Source: Devosia sp. SD17-2 (GTDB lineage: Bacteria > Pseudomonadota > Alphaproteobacteria > Rhizobiales > Devosiaceae). From it: a stretch of DNA of 64,000 nt. The stretch lies in NCBI RefSeq assembly GCF_029201565.1, contig NZ_CP104002.1, forward strand, positions 3,997,001 through 4,061,000, read 5' to 3'. Position numbers and translations under genes: made by a program. Shown here piece by piece: positions 38,239 through 49,999 of this stretch (positions within the stretch are counted from its first letter, which is position 1; each line of letters begins with the position of its first letter). Below the pieces are notes generated by a model. That model was not told where the DNA came from. It did not search any database and was given only the letters and a program-made list of their open reading frames with translations.

Positions 38239-39648
38239 ATGACCCAGTTCCTTCCCGCCCGCTCCCACGCCGATCTCGGCCGCGACTTCTTCGATCCCGT
38301 CGCCCCCGCCGATTTTCCCAAAACCATTTTGCGGCATCGCGACCAGCGCTGGTCCGAACGGCTCGGCCTGGGCGATCTCGGCGACGATCAATGGCTTGCC
38401 CATTTCGGCCGCTTCGATCCCCTGCCCGGTTCGCTGCCCGAGCCACTGGCGCTGCGCTATCATGGCCACCAGTTCCGCTCCTATAATCCCGATCTCGGCG
38501 ACGGACGCGGCTTCCTGTTTGGCCAGTGTATCGACCCGGTGGATGGGCGACTTCTGGATTTCGGCACCAAGGGCTCAGGCAAGACGCCCTGGTCGCGCGG
38601 CGGCGATGGGCGGCTGACCCTCAAGGGCGGGGTGCGAGAAGTGCTGGCCACCGAAATGCTCGAGGCGCTGGGCGTCTACACCTCCAAGAGCTTTTCGCTG
38701 GTCGAAACCGGCGAGCAGCTCTGGCGCGGCGATGAACCCTCGCCCACCCGCTCTGCCGTTCTCACCCGGCTCAGCCACAGCCACATTCGGATCGGCACGT
38801 TCCAGCGTCTCGCCTATCTCGAGGACACGGCCAATATGCAAAAGCTGCTCGATTACGCGATCGCGCACTATTACCCGAATCTCGGCGACGCCGAAGATCG
38901 TCCCGCCGCATTCCTCGAGGCCGTGGTCGGCAATGTTGCCCGGCTTGGCGCGCAGTGGACAGCCGCAGGGTTCGTGCATGGCGTGCTCAACACCGACAAT
39001 ATCAACATCACCGGCGAGAGCTTTGACTACGGGCCGTGGCGCTTCCTGCCGCAGTACGACCCCGAGTTCACCGCCGCCTATTTCGACGAAACCCGCCTCT
39101 ATAGCTTTGGGCGTCAGCCCGACACGCTGGCCTGGAACCTCACCCGGCTCGCCGAATGTCTCGTGCCGATCTCCAGCATCGAAAAGCTCGAGCCCGCGCT
39201 CAACTCTGTCTGGCCGAGTTTTCGCGATGAATTGCCCCGGCAGATCCTGCGGCGGCTTGGGCTGGTTCCGCGCGGTACCGAGGAGGATGGGGCCTTCGTC
39301 ACGACGCTCTTCGGCTTTCTCTCGGCCAGCAAGGCGCCCTACGAGCAGTTCTACTTTGACTGGCGCGGCGGTGTGCAGAGCGCCGAACGCGCCGCCGAAA
39401 GTCCCTCGGCGGACTTTTATGCCAGCGAGGCATTCAGGCAGGTGGCGGACGGGCTGGAAGCCTATGCGCCCACCCCGGACTGCAATCTCACCCACTCCTA
39501 TTTCGCCCGCAAAACCCCACGCACCATGCTGATCGAGGAGGTGGAAGCTATCTGGGCGCCAATCGCCGAAACCGACGACTGGAGCCTCTTCCACCAGACG
39601 CTTGCCGAAATCGCCGAGATGCGCGCAGCCTATGGGATGACGGTCTAG
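38239..39648 (+). CDS. selO: Protein adenylyltransferase SelO (YdiU family)
   Basis: Pseudokinase-fold enzyme that transfers AMP to protein Ser, Thr or Tyr. 469 aa. Seen: RYHGHQFRSYNPDLGDGRG, DFGTKGSGKTPWSRGGDGRL (ATP loop with lysine), VREVLATEMLEALGV, THSH-like SHSHIRIGTFQRL, the metal-binding FVHGVLNTDNINITGES and FDYGPWRFLP. The usual C-terminal redox Cys-x-x-U/C of longer SelO is not present; the protein is somewhat short. Its stop overlaps the stop of the convergent alcohol dehydrogenase gene by four bases. Confidence 0.95.
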   Translation: MTQFLPARSHADLGRDFFDPVAPADFPKTILRHRDQRWSERLGLGDLGDDQWLAHFGRFDPLPGSLPEPLALRYHGHQFRSYNPDLGDGRGFLFGQCIDPVDGRLLDFGTKGSGKTPWSRGGDGRLTLKGGVREVLATEMLEALGVYTSKSFSLVETGEQLWRGDEPSPTRSAVLTRLSHSHIRIGTFQRLAYLEDTANMQKLLDYAIAHYYPNLGDAEDRPAAFLEAVVGNVARLGAQWTAAGFVHGVLNTDNINITGESFDYGPWRFLPQYDPEFTAAYFDETRLYSFGRQPDTLAWNLTRLAECLVPISSIEKLEPALNSVWPSFRDELPRQILRRLGLVPRGTEEDGAFVTTLFGFLSASKAPYEQFYFDWRGGVQSAERAAESPSADFYASEAFRQVADGLEAYAPTPDCNLTHSYFARKTPRTMLIEEVEAIWAPIAETDDWSLFHQTLAEIAEMRAAYGMTV

Positions 39649-40805
39649 CGGCTAGACCTTCCCGTCAGCGCCCGGTCGAAGATCTCCAGCGCCCGATCAC
39701 GCGTCAGCTCGATCGGATTGCCGCCCGCCGTGGGGTCGACCACGGCCATGTCGGCAATCTGCTCGCGCCTGTCCCCGTTGACGCCGAAATCTTTCAGCGT
39801 ATGCGGCACGCCCAGTCTCAGTCGGAGCCCGACCAGCGCATGCAGGAACGCATCGAAATTGGGCGCGAGGCCGAGATAGGCAGCGAGCCGCGCGAGCCTG
39901 CCTTCCACCGCCGATTTATTGGAGATCAGCACATAGGGCATGAACACCGCATTGGTCATGCCGTGGTGCGTGTCATAGAGCGCGCCGACCGGATGGCTCA
40001 GCGCATGAATGCCCCCGAGCCCCTTCTGGAACGCCGTTGCGCCCATCGCCGCCGCACTCATCATGTGTCCCCGCGCCACGATATCATTGGGGTTGGCGAC
40101 GACCTTGGGCAGGTTTTCGAACACAAGCCTTATGCCCTCCACCGCGATACCATCGGCCATCGGGTGATAGCCGGGCGCGCAATAGGCTTCGAGACAATGG
40201 GCCAGCGCGTCCATGCCCGTCCCCACGGTGATAAACGGGGGCATGCCGATGGTCAGTTCGGGATCGGCGATGACGATCTTCGGCATCATCAGGGGGTGAA
40301 AGATCACCTTCTTGGTCTGGCTGCGCTCGTCGGTGATCACCCCGGCCCTGCCCACTTCCGAGCCGGTCCCGGCCGTTGTCGGCACGGCTATGGTGGGCAG
40401 GATCCCCGCCGGATCGGCACGGGTCCACCAGTCGCCGACATCCTCAAAATCCCACATCGGCCGGGTCTGCCCGGCCATGAAGGCAATCACCTTGCCGGTA
40501 TCGAGCCCTGAGCCCCCGCCAAAGGCGATGACCCCGTCATGCCCGCCGGCCCGCAGCACCTCGATGCCCGCCTCGACATTGGCCGCGACCGGATTGGGTT
40601 TGACTTCGGAAAAGAGGCCGACGTCGATCCCCCGCTCCTTGAGCATGCCGAGCACGGAGAGGGTCACCGGCAGGGTCGCCAGCCCGGCATCGGTGACGAG
40701 GAGTGGCTTTTTTATGCCCACGGCGGCCAGCGCCTCGGGGAGTTCGGCAATGCGCCCGGCGCCAAAGCGCATGGCGGTCGGATAATTCCAATTGGCATTG
40801 GTCAT
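39645..40805 (-). CDS. Iron-containing alcohol dehydrogenase
   Basis: Group III NAD-dependent dehydrogenase of 386 aa. Seen: GVIAFGGGSGLDTGKVIAF (NAD loop), IAVPTTAGTGSEVGRAGVI, and metal ligands in the MDALAHCLEAYC and GIHALSHPVGALYDTHHGMTN stretches. AGGAGG ribosome site before the ATG at 40805. Last gene of a minus-strand run: amidohydrolase, GS-like ligase, aldehyde dehydrogenase, this enzyme. In that setting it may oxidise the hydroxyl of a gamma-glutamyl amino alcohol (inference). Confidence 0.92.
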   Translation of the reverse strand: MTNANWNYPTAMRFGAGRIAELPEALAAVGIKKPLLVTDAGLATLPVTLSVLGMLKERGIDVGLFSEVKPNPVAANVEAGIEVLRAGGHDGVIAFGGGSGLDTGKVIAFMAGQTRPMWDFEDVGDWWTRADPAGILPTIAVPTTAGTGSEVGRAGVITDERSQTKKVIFHPLMMPKIVIADPELTIGMPPFITVGTGMDALAHCLEAYCAPGYHPMADGIAVEGIRLVFENLPKVVANPNDIVARGHMMSAAAMGATAFQKGLGGIHALSHPVGALYDTHHGMTNAVFMPYVLISNKSAVEGRLARLAAYLGLAPNFDAFLHALVGLRLRLGVPHTLKDFGVNGDRREQIADMAVVDPTAGGNPIELTRDRALEIFDRALTGRSSR

Positions 40806-40921
40806 AATAGCCTCCTCACCCTCACTATCTTCACCGTCCTTGCCGGGCGCGCCCGGCAATCCAACCCGCTCTGCATGGACCACCGGGCCCGCCCGGCAGC
40901 AACGATGACACGGAAAACGCC

Positions 40922-42304
40922 TTACACCCGCCGCAGATGAAAACTCTTGGGCTGGGTCAGATTGTGGTAGCCAATCTCGCTCAGCGCCCCGCCTTTGCCG
41001 GTGTCCTTCACACCAGTCCAAACGAGGGCGGGGTCGAGATAGTCGCATCGATTGGCAAAAACCGTCCCGGTTTCGACATGGGCGCCAATCCTTCCGGCTG
41101 CGTCGAGATCCGCCGTCCAGATCGAGGCCGTCAATCCATAGGGGCTGTCGTTCATCAGCCCGATCGCCTCCTCGTCGTCGGCCACCTTCATGATCCCGAC
41201 CACCGGCCCGAAACTCTCCTCGCGCATGAGACTCATCTGGTGGTTCACGCCTGTCAGGACTTCGGGGGCCAGCCAGGGCGAGCCGGGCTTGTCGCGTTCA
41301 TGGGCCCAGTTGAGATGACGCCCCGCTCCGCTGCGCACGGCTTCCTCGGTCTGGCGCCGCACATGGTCGGCAAAGCTGGCGCGCGCCATCGGCCCGATCA
41401 CAGTCGCCGGATCGAGCGGATGCCCCAGCGTCCAGCTGCGCGCCTGCCCAACGAAGCGGTCGACAAAGCCGTCATAGGCATCGGCATGGACATAGATGCG
41501 CTCCACCCCGCAGCAGGATTGCCCGGAGTTGAAAAAGCTCCCGTCGACGAGGTTTTCAGCAGCAAAGTCGAGATCGGCATCGGCCCGCACATAGGCTGGA
41601 TCCTTGCCGCCGAGCTCCAGCCCCAGCGAGGCAAATGTGCCGGCCGCCGCCCGCTTGATCCGCCGCCCGCCTTCGACCGATCCGGTGAAGCTGATGTGGT
41701 CGACCAGCCCCGAGCCCACCAGTTTTTCGGTGTCGGCATGGCTCAGCACCAGGTTCTGGAACACCCCCTCCGGCAGGCCGGCCATCCGTGCCGCCTCGGC
41801 AAAACGCTCACCCGCCAGCAGCGTCTGGCTGGCATGTTTGAGCAGCACCACATTGCCCGCCGCCAGCGCGGGAATGATGGAATTGACCGCCGTGAGAAAC
41901 GGATAATTCCACGGCGCGATCACGAGCACCACGCCCAGCGGCTCGCGGGTGATATAGCGCACGAACCCGTCTTTTTCCGGCCGCATCAGCGGCGCGAGAC
42001 TCTCCCCGGCAATGGCCAGCATATGCCGACTGCGTTCCTCGACGCCGCGCCTTTCGCCGCCATAGCGGACGGGCCGCCCCATCTGCGAGGCCAGTTCGGG
42101 CACGATGGCGTCGTTCATCGCCAAGAGCGCATCGACCATTTTGCCCACCAGCGCCACCCGCTCGCCGAGCGGCACCATGCGCCAGTCGCGCTGTGCCGCC
42201 TTCGCGCGGCTCATCGCCCGATCAATGGCGTCCCCGTCGAGCGTCTGCCGTTCGGCGAAAAGTTTTCCGTCCACTGGAGAGATGATCTGCACTGTCTCGG
42301 TCAT
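40922..42304 (-). CDS. Aldehyde dehydrogenase family protein
   Basis: NAD(P)-dependent ALDH of 460 aa, cytosolic. Catalytic Glu in LGLELGGKDP, catalytic Cys in SGQSCCGVERI, APWNYPF cofactor region, FTGSVEGGRRI and MREESFGPVVGI. It starts 14 bases after the GS-like gene. By context it would oxidise a gamma-glutamyl amino aldehyde, like PuuC in the putrescine route; substrate not shown by sequence. Confidence 0.92.
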   Translation of the reverse strand: MTETVQIISPVDGKLFAERQTLDGDAIDRAMSRAKAAQRDWRMVPLGERVALVGKMVDALLAMNDAIVPELASQMGRPVRYGGERRGVEERSRHMLAIAGESLAPLMRPEKDGFVRYITREPLGVVLVIAPWNYPFLTAVNSIIPALAAGNVVLLKHASQTLLAGERFAEAARMAGLPEGVFQNLVLSHADTEKLVGSGLVDHISFTGSVEGGRRIKRAAAGTFASLGLELGGKDPAYVRADADLDFAAENLVDGSFFNSGQSCCGVERIYVHADAYDGFVDRFVGQARSWTLGHPLDPATVIGPMARASFADHVRRQTEEAVRSGAGRHLNWAHERDKPGSPWLAPEVLTGVNHQMSLMREESFGPVVGIMKVADDEEAIGLMNDSPYGLTASIWTADLDAAGRIGAHVETGTVFANRCDYLDPALVWTGVKDTGKGGALSEIGYHNLTQPKSFHLRRV

Positions 42305-42318
42305 GTTCGCCTCCCCTC

Positions 42319-43674
42319 CTAGCTGCGCTCAAACCCGCGCTGGCGCTCCCAGTCGGTTACCCGCCGGTCATATTCAAACTGCTCCCACTCGCCGGTGTGC
42401 ACATAGTGCCCGACCACATCCGCCCCGAAGGCTTCCTCCAGCATTTTCGAGCCCTTCAGACCGGCAATTGCGTCGCGCAGGGTCTTGTGCACCTCGCGCA
42501 GCTCCCCTTGGGCATAGGCATCGCCGGAAAAGCCGGGTTCGAGGTCAAGCTTGTCCTCGATGCCCTTGATCCCCGCCGCCAGAAGCGCGGCAAAGGCGAG
42601 ATAGGGATTCAGATCCGCCCCGCCGATCCGGCACTCGACACGGATCCCCTTGGTGTTTTCCCCACACAGCCGAAAGCCCGCCGTCCGATTGTCCCGGCTC
42701 CAGATCGCCTTGGTGGGCGCAAAGGTGCCGACCTGAAAGCGCTTGTAGGAATTGATATAGGGCGCGAGGAAATAGGTGATGTCGCCGGCATAGGTCAGCA
42801 GCCCGGCCATGAAGTGCTTCATCAGGTCCGACATGCCCAATTCATCGCCCTCATCGACAAACTGGTTCTGCCCCTCCCGCGCCAGCGACATGTGGATATG
42901 CGCCGATGATCCGGCCAGCTCATAGGCCCATTTGGCCATGAAGGTGACGGCCTTGCCTTGGGCGTAGGCGATCTCCTTGGTGGCGTTCTTGATCACCACA
43001 TGCCGGTCCGCCATGGTCAGCGCCTCGGCATAGCGGACATTGATCTCCTCCTGCCCCGGCCCCCATTCGCCCTTGGAATTTTCGACCGGAATGCCGGAGG
43101 CGTGGAGCTCGTTGCGCAGCGCCCGCATCACCCCTTCTTCCTTGGTGGTCTGGAAGATGTGGTAATCCTCGATGTAGTAGCCAGCGGCCTTGAGGTCGCG
43201 ATATCCCTTCTCATGGGCAGTGCGGAAACTGTCCTCGAAGAGATAAAATTCGAGTTCGCTGGCAAAATTGGCCGAAAGCCCCATGGCCTCGAGCCGCGCC
43301 AATTGGCGCTTGAGCACATTGCGCGGGGCGTGCGGTACAGGCTCATGGTGATGGTCGAGCGCATCGGCGATCACCAGCGCCGTGCCCTCGAGCCAGGTGC
43401 ATTTCATCAGCGTGGAGAGATCGGGCTTGATGACGAAATCACCATAGCCCTTCTTCCAATTGGCCGCCGCATAGCCGGGCACCGGTTCCATGTCGATATC
43501 GTCGGCGAGCAGGTAATCGCAGCCATGGGTTTCATCCATGGCGGTCTCGAGAAAGAAGGCGGCGAGGAAGCGCTTGCCGATCAGCCGCCCCTGCATGTCG
43601 GGAAAGGCCACGAGCACGGTATCGATCCGGCCGGCCGCAACATCTTTCCGAAGCTCTTCAAGCGCATACACCAA
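42319..43674 (-). CDS. Glutamine-synthetase-family gamma-glutamyl-amine ligase
   Basis: 451-aa GS-fold enzyme closer to PuuA/GlnA4-type ligases than to GlnA. N-terminal beta-grasp with VLVAFPDMQGRLIGKR, then the catalytic part: SELEFYLFEDSF (metal Glu), WGPGQEEINVRYAEALTMADRH, TFMAKWAYELAGSSAHIHMSL and NRTAGFRLCGENTKGIRVECR. The GlnA adenylylation tyrosine motif is not seen. It would join glutamate to a free amine using ATP. It lies between the amidohydrolase and ALDH genes with short gaps. The amine (ethanolamine, putrescine or other) is not settled. Confidence 0.88.
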   Translation of the reverse strand: MVYALEELRKDVAAGRIDTVLVAFPDMQGRLIGKRFLAAFFLETAMDETHGCDYLLADDIDMEPVPGYAAANWKKGYGDFVIKPDLSTLMKCTWLEGTALVIADALDHHHEPVPHAPRNVLKRQLARLEAMGLSANFASELEFYLFEDSFRTAHEKGYRDLKAAGYYIEDYHIFQTTKEEGVMRALRNELHASGIPVENSKGEWGPGQEEINVRYAEALTMADRHVVIKNATKEIAYAQGKAVTFMAKWAYELAGSSAHIHMSLAREGQNQFVDEGDELGMSDLMKHFMAGLLTYAGDITYFLAPYINSYKRFQVGTFAPTKAIWSRDNRTAGFRLCGENTKGIRVECRIGGADLNPYLAFAALLAAGIKGIEDKLDLEPGFSGDAYAQGELREVHKTLRDAIAGLKGSKMLEEAFGADVVGHYVHTGEWEQFEYDRRVTDWERQRGFERS

Positions 43675-43713
43675 TCGGGTCTCCTCCCCCTTGTGTCCGT
43701 CGCCCGCGCAGGT

Positions 43714-44481
43714 CTAGGGCCGCTTGCCTCCGCGTTTGCGGCGGGCCGCCTCCAGACATTCCGCGAGCAGTTCCGCCCAATAGGTCACGCCCTCACGTGA
43801 CAGGATTTCATCATTGCGCAGCTCGATCATCGTCGCCTCGAGCCCGCGCCCGTCGCCGTGTTTCTCCAGCGTCAGGGTGACGCCGTTGAGCGCGGCATAG
43901 GGCTGGTTCCAGCCGATATTGAGATCGGGCTCGGCGGCCGCTAGTGCGTCCCGCAGGGCCTCGGTGAAGCCTGTGTCCCGTCCATGCAGCAGGCCGATCG
44001 GCCAAGGCCGGGCAATGCCAAGATAGACCGGGGTGAAGGAATGCATGCAGACCAGTACGGTTTCCATGCCGGCATGCCGTCGCATCTCCAGCAGCCGTTC
44101 AATGGCCGTGTGATAGGGCTGATGGAAATGGGCGATGCGGTATTCCCGCTCCTCGGGCGAGAGATTTTCATTGCCCGGAATGCGCGTCGCCTCCGACAGG
44201 GTCCAGATCAGGTCCGGTGCATCGAGGTCCCGATTGGGGTCGATGATCAGGCGCGAGATGCCGGACCACACAAGGGGCGCATCGAGCGCATCGGACAGTC
44301 CTCGGCTCACCGCCAGCGCACCCGGGTCCCAGGCGATATGGCTGACGCGCTGGACCGGCGTCAGCCCGAGGTCACCATAGGCCTCCGGAATGAAATTGGA
44401 GGCGTGGTCGCAGACGATGACAAAGGGCGATGCCCCACGTGCATTGGTCACCGTCACCGCTTTTTCGTTACTGGCGATCAT
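43714..44481 (-). CDS. N-formylglutamate amidohydrolase family protein
   Basis: 255-aa zinc hydrolase of the FGase fold. Seen: FVIVCDHASNFIPEAYGDLGL, DPGALAVSRGLSDALDAPLV, SRLIIDPNRD, and LVCMHSFTPVYLG with a metal histidine. No histidine-utilisation (hut) genes are near; the neighbours are a GS-like ligase, ALDH and ADH, so it may instead cleave a gamma-glutamyl amide at the end of that pathway (inference). The ATG at 44481 is preferred to TTG 44490. First gene of the operon. Confidence 0.88.
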   Translation of the reverse strand: MIASNEKAVTVTNARGASPFVIVCDHASNFIPEAYGDLGLTPVQRVSHIAWDPGALAVSRGLSDALDAPLVWSGISRLIIDPNRDLDAPDLIWTLSEATRIPGNENLSPEEREYRIAHFHQPYHTAIERLLEMRRHAGMETVLVCMHSFTPVYLGIARPWPIGLLHGRDTGFTEALRDALAAAEPDLNIGWNQPYAALNGVTLTLEKHGDGRGLEATMIELRNDEILSREGVTYWAELLAECLEAARRKRGGKRP

Positions 44482-44663
44482 GGTTCCCAAGCATCCTCAA
44501 GTCCTTGGTCCCAAGCAGGTGCCCAATCGCCCCCGGAGTCAATATCGAAAAGCGCACCAACCCCAAGCAGTTGCGCGATAAACTCTCGTGCCATCGAAAC
44601 AATCCCGGTTGCACCTCCGGCGCGGCCATGAAACTCTGTCCCCTGAGGCAGGAGAATAGACTT

Positions 44664-45494
44664 ATGGCCCAGAGTGCTGATCGTATCGCGGTCTCCACCT
44701 GGTCGTTGCATCGGCTTTTGGGCACGACCTATCCGCATAATCTCGACAGTGCCGAAATCGGCCCGGGCGAGGATACTTATGGGGAGGGCAGCGAGTCGCT
44801 GCTCGGCCTGCCCTCGGTGCTCGCCAACCATGGCTATCACCGGCTGGAAATCGTCTCCTTCCATATGCGCAGCCGTGACCCGGTCTATCTCGGCGAGTTG
44901 CGCGACCAGCTCAAAGTCTCCGGGGTCACGCTGCAGACCCTGCTCATCGATGCCGGTGACATTACCGATCCGGTCAACGGCGCGCGCGACACCGCCTGGA
45001 TCTCGGGCTGGGTCGAGGTGGCCAATGAGCTTGGCGCACAAAACGCCCGCATCATTGCCGGCAAGCAGGCGCCGACGCCCGAGACCATCGATCGCTCTGT
45101 CACCGCGCTGCGCCAGCTGGCCGATCGCAATGCCGGCTCGTCGGTGCGGCTCGTCACCGAAAACTGGCTGGCGCTCCTTTCCAGCCCCGGCGTGGTGCAT
45201 GAAGTGCTCGACCGGCTTGAGGGCCGCATCGGTCTTCTCGGCGATTTCGGCAACTGGACGGGCGAGGACAAACACGAGGCCCTGGCCTCCATCTTGCCGC
45301 GGGCCGAGCTCTGCCACGCCAAGGCGAGCTTCGTTTCGGGCCAGCTCGACGAGGCCGACTATGGCACCTGCCTCTCGGTCGCCGAGGATGCCGGCTATGC
45401 CGGGCCCTATACGTTGATCTTTGATGCAGACCACCCGAGCGAATGGAACGGTCTCTCCGCTGAACGCGACTTCATCCTGTCCCGCCTCGCGTGA
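44664..45494 (+). CDS. TIM-barrel sugar-isomerase/epimerase-like protein
   Basis: 276 aa with the xylose-isomerase-like TIM-barrel (AP endonuclease 2 family) layout: ISTWSLH-type start (VSTWSLHRLLG), HRLEIVSFHMRSRDP, LLIDAGDI, RIIAGKQAP, VTENW, LGDFGNW and CHAKASF. Metal ligands E, D, H, E can be placed at TENW, GDFGNW, CHAKA and the last strand. AGGAGA ribosome site before the ATG at 44664. Divergent from the gamma-glutamyl operon; substrate unknown. Confidence 0.88.
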   Translation: MAQSADRIAVSTWSLHRLLGTTYPHNLDSAEIGPGEDTYGEGSESLLGLPSVLANHGYHRLEIVSFHMRSRDPVYLGELRDQLKVSGVTLQTLLIDAGDITDPVNGARDTAWISGWVEVANELGAQNARIIAGKQAPTPETIDRSVTALRQLADRNAGSSVRLVTENWLALLSSPGVVHEVLDRLEGRIGLLGDFGNWTGEDKHEALASILPRAELCHAKASFVSGQLDEADYGTCLSVAEDAGYAGPYTLIFDADHPSEWNGLSAERDFILSRLA

Positions 45495-45556: not shown

Positions 45557-47305
45557 ATGGTGACCGTCATGGGACCGCCACGTACGACATTACCTGTCGC
45601 CGGCCAGAACCAGCGGGGGGATCCCTCCGCGGCGGAGGCCGCCCGCGCCTTTGATCAACTGCCCTTCGGCATGTTGCTGGTCGATGCCGCCGGCGCCATC
45701 AGGCACGCCAACCCGGCCTGCGCCGAACTGCTCGGGCACGCGCCCGCGGACCTGACGCGCCAGACGCTCGCAGACCTCATCCACCCTTCCGATGAGAGTG
45801 CGCTCGACCTTCAATTCGAGCGGCTGGTGCGCGGGGAAATTTCCTCCCTCCACGGCGAGCATCGCTTCAGCCACGCAGATGCGAGCCCGCTATGGGTGCA
45901 GGTCGGTGCGCGCTCCTTCGAGAGCGCGGACGATACGTCGCTGTTCGTTCTGCAGCTGGCCAATATCGAGACGCACAAGAAGGCCGAGGAAGCGCTTATC
46001 TACACCGAAAAGCGCTGGCGCTTTGCACTCCAGAGCGCCCGCCAGGGCGTTTGGGATTATGACTACCGCACCGACAGCATTTTCTATTCCGACGGCTGGC
46101 GAAGGATTCGTGGCTATAGCCCCGACGAATGGGTCGACGGCGCCACCGCCGCCTGGCACTCCAGGATCCACCCGGACGATCTGCCTGTCGTGAAGGCCAA
46201 TATCGACCGCCAGGAACAGAGCGATGATACCTTCGAGGGGCTCGAATATCGCGAACGGCGCAAGGACGGTTCCTATGTCTGGATCCTGAGCCGCGGTCGC
46301 GCCGTCGAATGGACCGACGCCGGCGAGCCGTTGCGCACCATCGGCACCGATACCGACATCACCCATCTCAAGATGGTCGAGCAGGAACTGGACAGGGAAA
46401 AAGAGCGCCTGCGCATCATCCTGTCCTCCGTCGCCGACGGCATGATCTCGGTCGATGCCGAGGGCCGTGTCGACTTCATGAACGCCGCCGCCGAACAGCT
46501 GACCGGGGTCAGCGCCGCGGCCGCCCGTGGAGAGCCGATCGAAGCCATTTTCCGGCTTCAGGACCACACCTCAGGCGCGCCCATGGACTGTCCGGTGCGC
46601 AGCTCCCTCGCGCAAGGCTTGCCCATTCGCGTCGAGGACGATGCCGAGCTCATCAGCCATGACGGCACGAGGCGCGATATCCGCTGCACTGCCGCTCCCG
46701 TTCTCGGCAGCGCCGATGACGTCCTCGGGGCCGTGCTGATCTTCCAGGACATGACCCAGAGCCGGGCGCTGCAGCGTCAACTGGCGCATACGGCCAGTCA
46801 CGACCCTCTGACCGATCTGACCAATCGCGCTGCCTTCGAGAAGGCACTGGCCCGAACCATCGCCGAGGCGCGCGAGACAGGAAAGCCATCCTGCCTGATC
46901 TTTATCGACCTTGATCACTTCAAGCCCGTCAATGACACCGCGGGCCACGCCGCGGGCGATGCGCTGCTCAAGAGGGTCGCCCAGACCATCCGCGACTGCT
47001 GCCGCAGCCACGACACCGTGGCACGCATCGGCGGCGACGAGTTCGCCGTCATTCTCGACTGCTGCCCCGAGGAAAACGGCCTGCAGGTGGGCCAAAAAAT
47101 CGTGCGGGCGATCAGCGCGCTCGCCTTCGACTGGGGAGGAAAGACCCATCGCGTTTCGGCCAGCGCCGGGCTGACCATCATCACGCCCGAGCCACCCTCA
47201 GCCATCGGCTTTCTGGGCGAGGCGGATGCCGCCTGCTATCCGGCCAAGGCCGAAGGGCGCGGGCGCATCATTTCCTACGGTGAGGCGATCGCCGGTCAGC
47301 CGTAA
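45557..47305 (+). CDS. PAS-domain diguanylate cyclase
   Basis: 582 aa, no membrane segment. Three PAS-type modules in series (about residues 30-145, 150-280 and 285-410: LPFGMLLVDAAGAI, ALQSARQGVWDYDY, ILSSVADGMISVDAEG), the second with the PAC motif REGSYVWILSRG-like KDGSYVW. The GGDEF domain follows with an intact IGGDEFAVIL motif at residue 492 and an RxxD product-inhibition site (RSHD, 483-486) exactly five residues before it. No EAL domain. Makes c-di-GMP; stimulus unknown. The stop overlaps the convergent ABC gene. Confidence 0.93.
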   Translation: MVTVMGPPRTTLPVAGQNQRGDPSAAEAARAFDQLPFGMLLVDAAGAIRHANPACAELLGHAPADLTRQTLADLIHPSDESALDLQFERLVRGEISSLHGEHRFSHADASPLWVQVGARSFESADDTSLFVLQLANIETHKKAEEALIYTEKRWRFALQSARQGVWDYDYRTDSIFYSDGWRRIRGYSPDEWVDGATAAWHSRIHPDDLPVVKANIDRQEQSDDTFEGLEYRERRKDGSYVWILSRGRAVEWTDAGEPLRTIGTDTDITHLKMVEQELDREKERLRIILSSVADGMISVDAEGRVDFMNAAAEQLTGVSAAAARGEPIEAIFRLQDHTSGAPMDCPVRSSLAQGLPIRVEDDAELISHDGTRRDIRCTAAPVLGSADDVLGAVLIFQDMTQSRALQRQLAHTASHDPLTDLTNRAAFEKALARTIAEARETGKPSCLIFIDLDHFKPVNDTAGHAAGDALLKRVAQTIRDCCRSHDTVARIGGDEFAVILDCCPEENGLQVGQKIVRAISALAFDWGGKTHRVSASAGLTIITPEPPSAIGFLGEADAACYPAKAEGRGRIISYGEAIAGQP

Positions 47306-48054
47306 TAGACGGAGATCAGCTGGCCGCCGATCTCGTGCACATTGATGTCCATCTCATAGATCGGATTGAGCACGTCGGGGCGGATGATGTCCTTGACCGG
47401 GCCCTGCGCCGCCACCTTGCCCAGCTTCATGGCCACGATGTGGTCCGAATACCAGGAGGCGAAATTGATGTCGTGCAACACCAGCACGACCGTCTTGCCG
47501 AGTTCGTCGGCCGCCTGGCGCACCAGTTTCATCATGCCCATGGCATGTTTCATGTCGAGATTGTTGAGCGGCTCGTCGAGCAGCACATAGTCGGTGTCCT
47601 GGGCCAGGACCATGGCGACAAAGGCGCGCTGGCGCTGGCCACCCGACAATTCGTCGAGATATCGAGCCGAGAGCGGCTCGAGGTCGAGATAGCGGATCGC
47701 CCGGTCGATATGCTCCTTGTCCCCGGCATTCAGACGCCCCTTGGAATGGGGATAGCGTCCGAAGGAGACGAGGTCATAGACGGTCAGCCGCGCCGTCATG
47801 TGATTGTCCTGGCGCAGGATCGAGAGCTTCTTGGCGAGGTCGTCGCTCTTCGCCCGCGTCACATCCAGCCCGCCAATGGTCACGCTGCCCTTGTCCATCG
47901 CCATGAGGCGGCTGACCATGGAAAGAAGGGTCGACTTGCCGGCGCCATTGGGGCCGATGATCGAGGTTACCCCGCCCTGTGGCAGTTCGAGGGTTACCCC
48001 GTCGACGACGCAGGAGGTGCCGTAATTCTTGGTGACGCCTTGGGTGATGATCAT
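47296..48054 (-). CDS. Ferric-siderophore ABC transporter ATPase
   Basis: 252 aa. Walker A GPNGAGKSTLL, Q-loop RQDNHMTARLTVYDLV, signature LSGGQRQRAFVAMVLA, Walker B YVLLDEPLNNLD, H-loop LHDINFASWYSDH. Resembles VctC/CeuD-like ATPases of catecholate siderophore importers. Overlaps the upstream permease gene by four bases (ATGA-type coupling). Confidence 0.95.
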   Translation of the reverse strand: MIITQGVTKNYGTSCVVDGVTLELPQGGVTSIIGPNGAGKSTLLSMVSRLMAMDKGSVTIGGLDVTRAKSDDLAKKLSILRQDNHMTARLTVYDLVSFGRYPHSKGRLNAGDKEHIDRAIRYLDLEPLSARYLDELSGGQRQRAFVAMVLAQDTDYVLLDEPLNNLDMKHAMGMMKLVRQAADELGKTVVLVLHDINFASWYSDHIVAMKLGKVAAQGPVKDIIRPDVLNPIYEMDINVHEIGGQLISVYYG

Positions 48055-49040
48055 CGGGCAGATTTCCTCAGCACGAGGGCAATAAAGACGACGCCGCCCA
48101 AAAACTCGATGATGATCGAGAGCGCGGTGTCAAAGGCGAAGACACGTTCCAGCAGCGTCTGGCCGCCAACCAGTGCGATGATCCCGAGAAGGATCGAAGC
48201 TGGCAGCACATAGCGATGCAGGGAATTGCCGATAAGCGAATGGGCGAGCGTCACCACCAGCAGGCCGAAGAACGTCACCGGGCCGACCAGCGCCGTCGAC
48301 ACCGACACAAGGATCGACACCAAGATCAGAATGATGGCCACGGTGCGCTTGTAGTCGACGCCCAGATTGATGGCGTGGGCGCGCCCCAGATTGAGCACGT
48401 CATAGACATGCATCATGCGGAAGGCAAAGACACTGACCACACCAACGATGACGCAGGAAATGCCCAGCAGCGACGGGTCGGTGGTGGCAAAGCTGGCGAA
48501 CAGCGTGTCCTGCAGCACGTTGAAGGCGCCGGGGTCCATCATGCGCTGCATGAGGTTGGAAAACGATCGGAACAGCGTGCCGAAGATGATGCCGACCAGC
48601 ACCAGGAGATGCAGGCTCCGCTCTTCCCCGAGAAACAACCAGCGGAACAGGAACCCCGAGAAGGCGACCATGGCAATCAGGGAGAACAGGAATTGCCATT
48701 CCGCGCTGATCGAGGTCAGCGCCCCGACGCCGAGGAAGAAAACGATGGACGTTTTGATCAGCACGTAGAGCGCATCAAAGCCCATGATCGATGGGGTCAG
48801 GATGCGGTTGTTGGTGACGGTCTGGAACAACACGGTCGACACCGCCACCGAATAGGCGACGAGCAGGAGGCCGAGCAGTTTCTTGCCCCGGAAGGGCAGC
48901 ACAAAACTCCAGCTGCCCTTGGCGCCGAGCGTCATGAACAGCACGACCGAAAGCACCGCCAGCACGGCGAGGGCGATCAGCACCCAGACCGGACGGGAGA
49001 GGCGCGAGAGCGGGGAAGAGGACACGATCTCGGTGCTCAT
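48051..49040 (-). CDS. Iron-siderophore ABC transporter permease 2 (FecCD family)
   Basis: 329 aa with eight or more membrane helices of the BtuC/FecD type. Characteristic stretches: SIMGFDALYVLI, LLVLVGIIFGTLFRSFSNLMQRMMDP, LGRAHAINLGVDYKR and GPVTFFGLLVVTLAHSLIG with the ATPase-contact region before it. Overlaps both the permease before it and the ATPase after it by four bases. Confidence 0.93.
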   Translation of the reverse strand: MSTEIVSSSPLSRLSRPVWVLIALAVLAVLSVVLFMTLGAKGSWSFVLPFRGKKLLGLLLVAYSVAVSTVLFQTVTNNRILTPSIMGFDALYVLIKTSIVFFLGVGALTSISAEWQFLFSLIAMVAFSGFLFRWLFLGEERSLHLLVLVGIIFGTLFRSFSNLMQRMMDPGAFNVLQDTLFASFATTDPSLLGISCVIVGVVSVFAFRMMHVYDVLNLGRAHAINLGVDYKRTVAIILILVSILVSVSTALVGPVTFFGLLVVTLAHSLIGNSLHRYVLPASILLGIIALVGGQTLLERVFAFDTALSIIIEFLGGVVFIALVLRKSAR

Positions 49041-49999
49041 TTGGCGCCTCGCGGCGTGCGCAGCAGCAGATAGAGGAACAGCATCGAGCCGACCACGCCC
49101 ATCACCACGGAAATCGGGATTTCATAGGGGTAACGGATGAGCCGGCCGACAATATCGCAGGCCAGCACCATGCCGGCGCCGCCGACGGCAACCCAGGGCA
49201 CGGTGCGGCGCATATTGTCGCCGATCAGCATGCTGACAACGTTCGGCACGATCAGCCCAAGGAAGGGGATCGACCCCACCGACACCAGCACCACGGCGCT
49301 GACGACCGATACGATGACCAGCCCGAGGATCATTACCGAGCGATGATTGAGCCCCAGATTGGTGGTGAAATCCTTGCCCATGCCGGCGACGGTAAAGCGG
49401 TCCGCCGCGATATAGGCGAGGATGCAACCGGCCAGACCAAACCACATCAGCTCATAGCGCCCGCGCAGCACGCCGGAGAAATCGCCCATGTTCCAGGCCA
49501 GCATCGATCCCATGAGGCTGGTTCGATAAGCGATGAAGGCGCCGATCGCGCCGACAATACCACCGAGCATGATGCCCACCAGCGGCACCAGCAGCACGTC
49601 GCGCAGCGGCACAGCGCGCAGCACCCGCAGGAACAGGGCCGTGCCACCCAGGGCAAAGAGGGCCGCCACGGCCATCTTGGCCATCAGGGGCCAACCGGGC
49701 GCAAAGATCGTCACCACGAGAAAACCCAGCGCCGCAGATTCGCTCGTGCCCGTGGTGCCGGGCTCGACGAAGCGGTTGCGCACGATCATCTGCATGACGA
49801 GGCCCGAAATAGCCATCGAGGCGCCTGCAAGGACCAGCGCAACGGTGCGCGGAATGCGGCTTATGAGGAGAACTTCGCCGGGACGGCCTTCCCAGCCACC
49901 AGACAGCAAAGACGCCAGCGAAACATCGCTGACGCCAACAAAGAGGCTGACAATCGCAAGGGCGATTGTGATGATCATTCCGGCAATAAGCGCAGGCAC
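49037..49999 (-). CDS. Iron-siderophore ABC transporter permease 1 (FecCD family)
   Basis: 320 aa, multi-pass. Seen: RIPRTVALVLAGASMAISGL, MQMIVRNRFVEPGTTGTSES, LGLNHRSVMILGLVIVSV and GSIPFLGLIVPNVVSMLIG, all normal for the BtuC fold. It forms the membrane channel with the following permease. It starts 68 bases after the binding-protein gene. Confidence 0.93.
   Translation of the reverse strand: MPALIAGMIITIALAIVSLFVGVSDVSLASLLSGGWEGRPGEVLLISRIPRTVALVLAGASMAISGLVMQMIVRNRFVEPGTTGTSESAALGFLVVTIFAPGWPLMAKMAVAALFALGGTALFLRVLRAVPLRDVLLVPLVGIMLGGIVGAIGAFIAYRTSLMGSMLAWNMGDFSGVLRGRYELMWFGLAGCILAYIAADRFTVAGMGKDFTTNLGLNHRSVMILGLVIVSVVSAVVLVSVGSIPFLGLIVPNVVSMLIGDNMRRTVPWVAVGGAGMVLACDIVGRLIRYPYEIPISVVMGVVGSMLFLYLLLRTPRGAK

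Follow-up and report, generated by a model that had tools for sequence, protein, structure and literature searches.

The locus studied here raises the question of which substrate is handled by a gene set that combines a ligase with the glutamine synthetase (GS) fold, an amidohydrolase of the N-formylglutamate amidohydrolase (FGase) family and two dehydrogenases. It lies in a window of 64,000 nucleotides (the whole stretch of DNA analysed), which is part of a genome of 4.23 Mb assembled as a single contig with a completeness of 100. The first-pass annotation had proposed a gamma-glutamyl amino alcohol route and favoured ethanolamine. This proposal is supported by the kinds and order of genes in Phaeobacter, by the close relationship of the ligase to Csal_0679 from Chromohalobacter salexigens, by ethanolamine-type transporters in the operons of relatives, by the lack of the ammonia residue in the ligase and by the large distance between the amidohydrolase and HutG. 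With a probability of roughly 0.85, we read the operon as a B12-independent gamma-glutamylation pathway for ethanolamine. Gene content and order, conservation, active-site letters, absences and selection are observed directly, and from these we infer the substrate, the order of reactions and the origin of the substrate. Neither this combination of enzymes nor the pathway is new, as both have already been published.

In the proposed pathway, the ligase would join glutamate and ethanolamine in an ATP-dependent reaction, the iron-containing alcohol dehydrogenase would convert the glutamylated alcohol into the aldehyde, the aldehyde dehydrogenase would oxidize the latter to gamma-glutamylglycine, and the amidohydrolase would finally release glycine and recover glutamate. 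Glutamate would thus act as a reusable handle that masks a reactive aminoaldehyde. The same logic of glutamylation, oxidation and hydrolysis underlies the Puu pathway for putrescine in E. coli, in which PuuA belongs to a ligase subfamily different from that of the window ligase and PuuD to a hydrolase family other than FGase.

A four-gene operon and its conservation

Coordinates, open reading frames and Pfam matches confirm four genes on the minus strand in the order amidohydrolase, ligase, aldehyde dehydrogenase and alcohol dehydrogenase. All four frames are open, of full length and co-directional, with gaps of 39, 14 and 116 bases between them (5' to 3'):

44482..44674, no strand assigned: region upstream of the operon, flanking a divergent isomerase-like gene (PF01261); relatives often have a divergent RpiR gene here
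43714..44481 (alternative TTG start at 44490), minus strand: FGase-family amidohydrolase, predicted gamma-glutamylglycine amidohydrolase (GGAH)
43675..43713, minus strand: gap between amidohydrolase and ligase genes; most relatives have a transporter cassette here
42319..43674, minus strand, TTG start: GS-fold ligase, predicted ethanolamine gamma-glutamylase
40922..42304, minus strand: aldehyde dehydrogenase, predicted gamma-glutamyl-aminoacetaldehyde dehydrogenase (GAADDH)
39645..40805, minus strand: iron-containing alcohol dehydrogenase, predicted gamma-glutamylethanolamide dehydrogenase (GETADH)

The open reading frame listed for the alcohol dehydrogenase extends to 41048; its start was set at 40805 because an ATG follows a purine-rich stretch at this position and the matches of relatives begin there. 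All Pfam matches are far above the respective cut-offs, with 142.7 bits for FGase (PF05013), 328.3 bits for Gln-synt_C (PF00120) and 388.3 bits for Aldedh (PF00171), while the alcohol dehydrogenase scores 164.8 bits for Fe-ADH (PF00465) and 150.4 bits for the C-terminal domain (PF25137). Downstream of the operon, a gene for SelO is located on the opposite strand, and its end overlaps that of the alcohol dehydrogenase gene by four bases. A scan of positions 39400-44900 yielded no terminator-like sites, compared with 3.3 in shuffled sequences, and the promoter scan was also empty; little weight is attached to either result. Near the operon (window positions 47296-49999), genes for an ABC importer are present (an ATPase and two FecCD-type permeases), which probably serves iron-siderophore uptake.

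Related loci were collected around matches of the ligase (L033-L112 comprise the top 80 among 250 confirmed matches and L113-L152 stem from 40 of 128 genomes with a ligase match), and 111 distinct loci were kept. All four genes occur together in 61 of the 88 distinct loci whose flanks, measured from the midpoint of the ligase gene, extend over at least 6 kb upstream and at least 5 kb downstream, and order and strand are identical in every one of these 61, so that the cluster is not a product of chance. A scattering of the genes in relatives, named by the first-pass annotation as a finding that would speak against its proposal, is therefore not what we see. At least one of the four genes is not nearby in the other 27 loci, six of which have the ligase gene without any of its three partners; partners were detected by score thresholds within 7 kb, and diverged or distant ones may escape. 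Locus L039, for example, possesses both dehydrogenase genes, but beyond this range. The closest relative of the window, L033, is 97-99% identical in all four proteins, and the closest named relatives belong to Devosia. Within this genus, the ligase is present in two of the seven genomes searched and the distribution of the operon is thus patchy.

Several related loci deviate from the common arrangement. A small PIN-domain gene resides between the ligase gene and the next dehydrogenase gene in eleven loci, ten of them distinct (L046, L048, L049, L052, L053, L106, L123, L132, L134, L143 and L149), and is preceded in eight of the eleven by another small gene (DUF7662 in the copy scanned); this might represent a toxin-antitoxin-like element inserted at a recurrent site. 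A gene for a BetA choline dehydrogenase is found within 7 kb of the ligase gene in twelve distinct loci (L088, L098, L099, L101, L105, L111, L116, L117, L118, L134, L141 and L148; the L101 copy scores 843 with TIGR01810, cut-off 732). Half of these twelve loci lack the aldehyde dehydrogenase gene, and some contain, besides two aminotransferase genes, another GS-fold gene with an identity of about 30%. In L085, L086, L094, L107 and L109, the ligase orthologue occurs without its three partners and a second, divergent GS-fold gene with 34-35% identity is situated about 3-5 kb away, an arrangement that possibly belongs to another pathway.

The enzymes and their closest described counterparts

Two solved structures belong to close relatives of the window ligase, one of them being Csal_0679 with 57% identity, whose locus number adjoins that of the ethanolamine-binding protein Csal_0678. 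The position of Glu327 (Salmonella numbering), which we take to be the ammonia-site residue, is occupied by Phe in 114 of 114 alignment rows including the window ligase (Phe318), an alignment that seemingly comprises five divergent second copies (122 members, 117 loci). A realignment again placed Phe at this position in the ligase and Glu in both the genome's own GlnA and E. coli GlnA. Nothing is concluded for the positions of Asp50, Ser53 and Tyr179, where the two alignments disagree for the window ligase. Taken together, sequence and structure matches assign the ligase to the Csal_0679 kind that lacks the ammonia-ligase residue.

Taken at face value, the Pfam family names would describe an ordinary glutamine synthetase beside a formylglutamate deformylase. 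This is barely conceivable given the changed ammonia-site letter, the presence of a separate GlnA encoded elsewhere in the genome and the score of the amidohydrolase with the HutG model TIGR02017, which at 28.4 bits is so far below the cut-off of 278.75 that identity with HutG (N-formylglutamate deformylase) was rejected. Gamma-glutamylation of a polyamine by a PuuA-type enzyme or of methylamine by a GmaS-type enzyme was also considered, since the ligase superfamily is shared and PuuA is likewise altered at the positions of Glu327 (Tyr) and Asn264 (Ala). However, the ligase reaches 188.2 bits with the PuuA model NF045547 (GGputSyn), whose cut-off is 650, it is only 26% identical to the GmaS structures, and the operon has a gene for an alcohol dehydrogenase but none for an amine oxidase, rendering a polyamine or methylamine substrate extremely improbable. 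PuuA, GmaS and plain glutamine synthetase were thus all rejected on the basis of model scores, residues at the active site and matches to structures.

The single solved relative of the amidohydrolase at E≤0.001 is Atu2144 (structure 2odf, 163.8 bits). Two additional FGase-family genes, at genome positions 624387-625079 (L153) and 3609534-3610169 (L155), score 113 and 25 with the HutG model and hence also stay below its cut-off. The aldehyde dehydrogenase retains E230 and C264, presumably the catalytic residues, which are conserved in a 77-row alignment, and the alcohol dehydrogenase retains D199, H203, H267 and H281, which are conserved among 80 rows and which we assume to be metal ligands. 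The best NCBIfam model for the latter enzyme is 4-hydroxybutyrate dehydrogenase (325, below the cut-off of 500), a match that has to be counted against the ethanolamine reading.

A pathway closely comparable to the one proposed here was described for Phaeobacter sp. MED193, in which a single operon has the order RpiR-GGAH-EtoV-EtoW-EtoX-ETAGA-GAADDH-GETADH (PMC10132767). According to that article, five proteins of the operon rise on phosphorylethanolamine, EtoX binds ethanolamine with a Kd of 7.9 uM, the pathway figure is labelled as predicted, and Vetting et al. (its reference 32) are cited with regard to C. salexigens and A. tumefaciens C58. Judged by the kinds of genes and not by their sequences, the same four enzymes occur in the same order in the window, which differs by the lack of EtoVWX and RpiR. 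For ethanolamine use in C. salexigens, a table in a review lists PF00120, PF00465, PF00171 and PF05013 (PMC9397018), i.e. exactly the four families of the window operon. The first-pass annotation had pointed to GlnA4-type routes in Streptomyces. The amino alcohol route behind this likeness stands, whereas the closest described system is that of C. salexigens and Phaeobacter and not Streptomyces GlnA4. In S. coelicolor, GlnA4 produces gamma-glutamylethanolamide, and dehydrogenases and an amidohydrolase encoded in the same cluster (SCO1610-1615) were proposed for the later steps, much as in the window (PMC6529630). This comparison is based on descriptions and not on sequences, and the descriptions vary: the legend to Figure 2 of PMC6529630 gives a short-chain dehydrogenase and a glutamine amidotransferase, unlike the window, while the discussion of the same article and Table 2 of PMC9397018 give a formylglutamate-type amidohydrolase and the review an iron-dependent dehydrogenase.

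Uptake genes, regulator and state of the operon

In 54 of the 61 four-gene loci, a transporter gene is located between the amidohydrolase and ligase genes. It encodes a permease of the ethanolamine-permease type (EAT) in 23 cases, a TRAP transporter in 19 and a third permease (ACT) in twelve; seven loci have none, and the transporter is here treated as accessory to the operon on account of these seven. A representative of the EAT type matches the ethanolamine permease model TIGR00908 best (338.8 bits, next model 125.7) and does not reach its cut-off of 381.75, and the top model for the third type, a broad amino-acid permease, also stays below its cut-off. The TRAP binding protein from the L133 operon scores 459 bits with 4uab (Csal_0678) and 61 bits with the next structure. 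We found no description of an exchange of transporter types at such a slot in the openly licensed literature, which is no proof of absence. An RpiR-like gene is present within 7 kb of the ligase gene in 47 of the 61 loci and not in the other 14; the regulator, too, is treated as accessory.

Both transporter and regulator are missing in the window, an absence on which the first-pass annotation did not comment, and a search of the window at E≤1 revealed no permease remnant. The whole genome gave no EAT match and no ACT match at E≤1e-5 in searches that detected these types in carrier genomes (two for EAT, G130 for ACT), no close counterpart of the Csal_0678-type TRAP binding protein of C. salexigens (best identity to the relatives' copy 27%) and no RpiR orthologue (top genuine match 38 bits, 27%). 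A 37-bit RpiR match at window positions 44295-44465 runs antisense to the amidohydrolase gene and probably stems from an over-extended query ORF. In a tree of 66 rows (65 four-gene loci and the window), the window forms a supported pair (99) with L033, which also lacks transporter and RpiR. Since the next relatives carry a permease gene (L034-L038), in part together with RpiR (L035-L038), or TRAP genes (L040 and L041), loss of transporter and regulator in the lineage of the window is the simplest reading. The absence of close relatives of the associated transporters from the genome counts against the ethanolamine pathway reading, as do the permease scores below the cut-offs and the 27 incomplete loci. 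A locus without transporter need not mean a cell without transporter, because G280, one of four other transporter-less genomes that were searched for the ACT type only, encodes an ACT-type relative elsewhere (47% identity).

The absence of transporter and RpiR orthologues from the genome and the patchy distribution within the genus would be compatible with a non-working remnant that decays in their absence. This is very unlikely, as the four frames are open, none of the four proteins departs from its family alignment at columns conserved to at least 95% (65 rows for the amidohydrolase), and dN/dS between the window and L033, both devoid of transporter and regulator, amounts to 0.019 for the amidohydrolase, 0.088 for the ligase, 0.117 for the aldehyde dehydrogenase and 0.026 for the alcohol dehydrogenase. 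The enzymes are under purifying selection despite the absent transporter and regulator. Such a pattern agrees with functional enzymes that have no uptake system of their own. A comparable case is S. coelicolor, which according to PMC6529630 likewise lacks the permease of other Streptomyces and for which intracellular recycling was suggested by the authors. As the operon comes without transporter or RpiR, ethanolamine would probably be derived from lipid turnover, diffusion or an unrelated transporter in the lineage of the window. We tentatively suggest, as a possibility that we rate somewhat below even, a fixed enzyme core with an exchangeable uptake cassette, in which some lineages have dropped uptake and regulator and use the operon for recycling of internal ethanolamine. 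The ACT-type relative in G280 counts against this recycling reading.

Relation to EutB and wider meaning

EutB (PF06751), taken as the criterion for the classical Eut route, was not found in the genome of the window at E≤0.001. Among 297 sampled genomes of the order, EutB is present in 79 and the ligase in 127, and both occur together in four compared with 33.8 expected (Fisher p 1.6e-17, a value that is too small because kinship is ignored). G233 was left out of the EutB count, its only match being a 43% paralogue. At the genus level, both genes are found in seven genera compared with 16.5 expected; nine families hold both, and within these there are four genomes with both. The direction of this relationship is consistent with one substrate being served by either of two routes.

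The gene set as such is generic for amino alcohols, and the same chemistry might act on another short amino alcohol (e.g. 2-aminopropanol, 1-amino-2-propanol or 3-aminopropanol) and yield another amino acid. Three interchangeable transporter types would fit shifting substrates, and there is a second structure of Csal_0678, 4xf5, whose ligand we take to be an aminopropanol. On the other hand, ethanolamine is indicated by two of these three types and the anticorrelation with EutB fits this substrate, so that we regard another amino alcohol as unlikely and retain ethanolamine.

Among the head groups of bacterial membranes, ethanolamine is a main one, and the genes of the route discussed here go by unspecific names like glutamine synthetase. 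The transporter slot offers natural swaps by which it could be tested whether transporters follow the niche while the enzymes stay fixed. Because the ligase is present in so many of the sampled genomes and seldom together with EutB, the B12-free route may be the commoner route for ethanolamine in this order.
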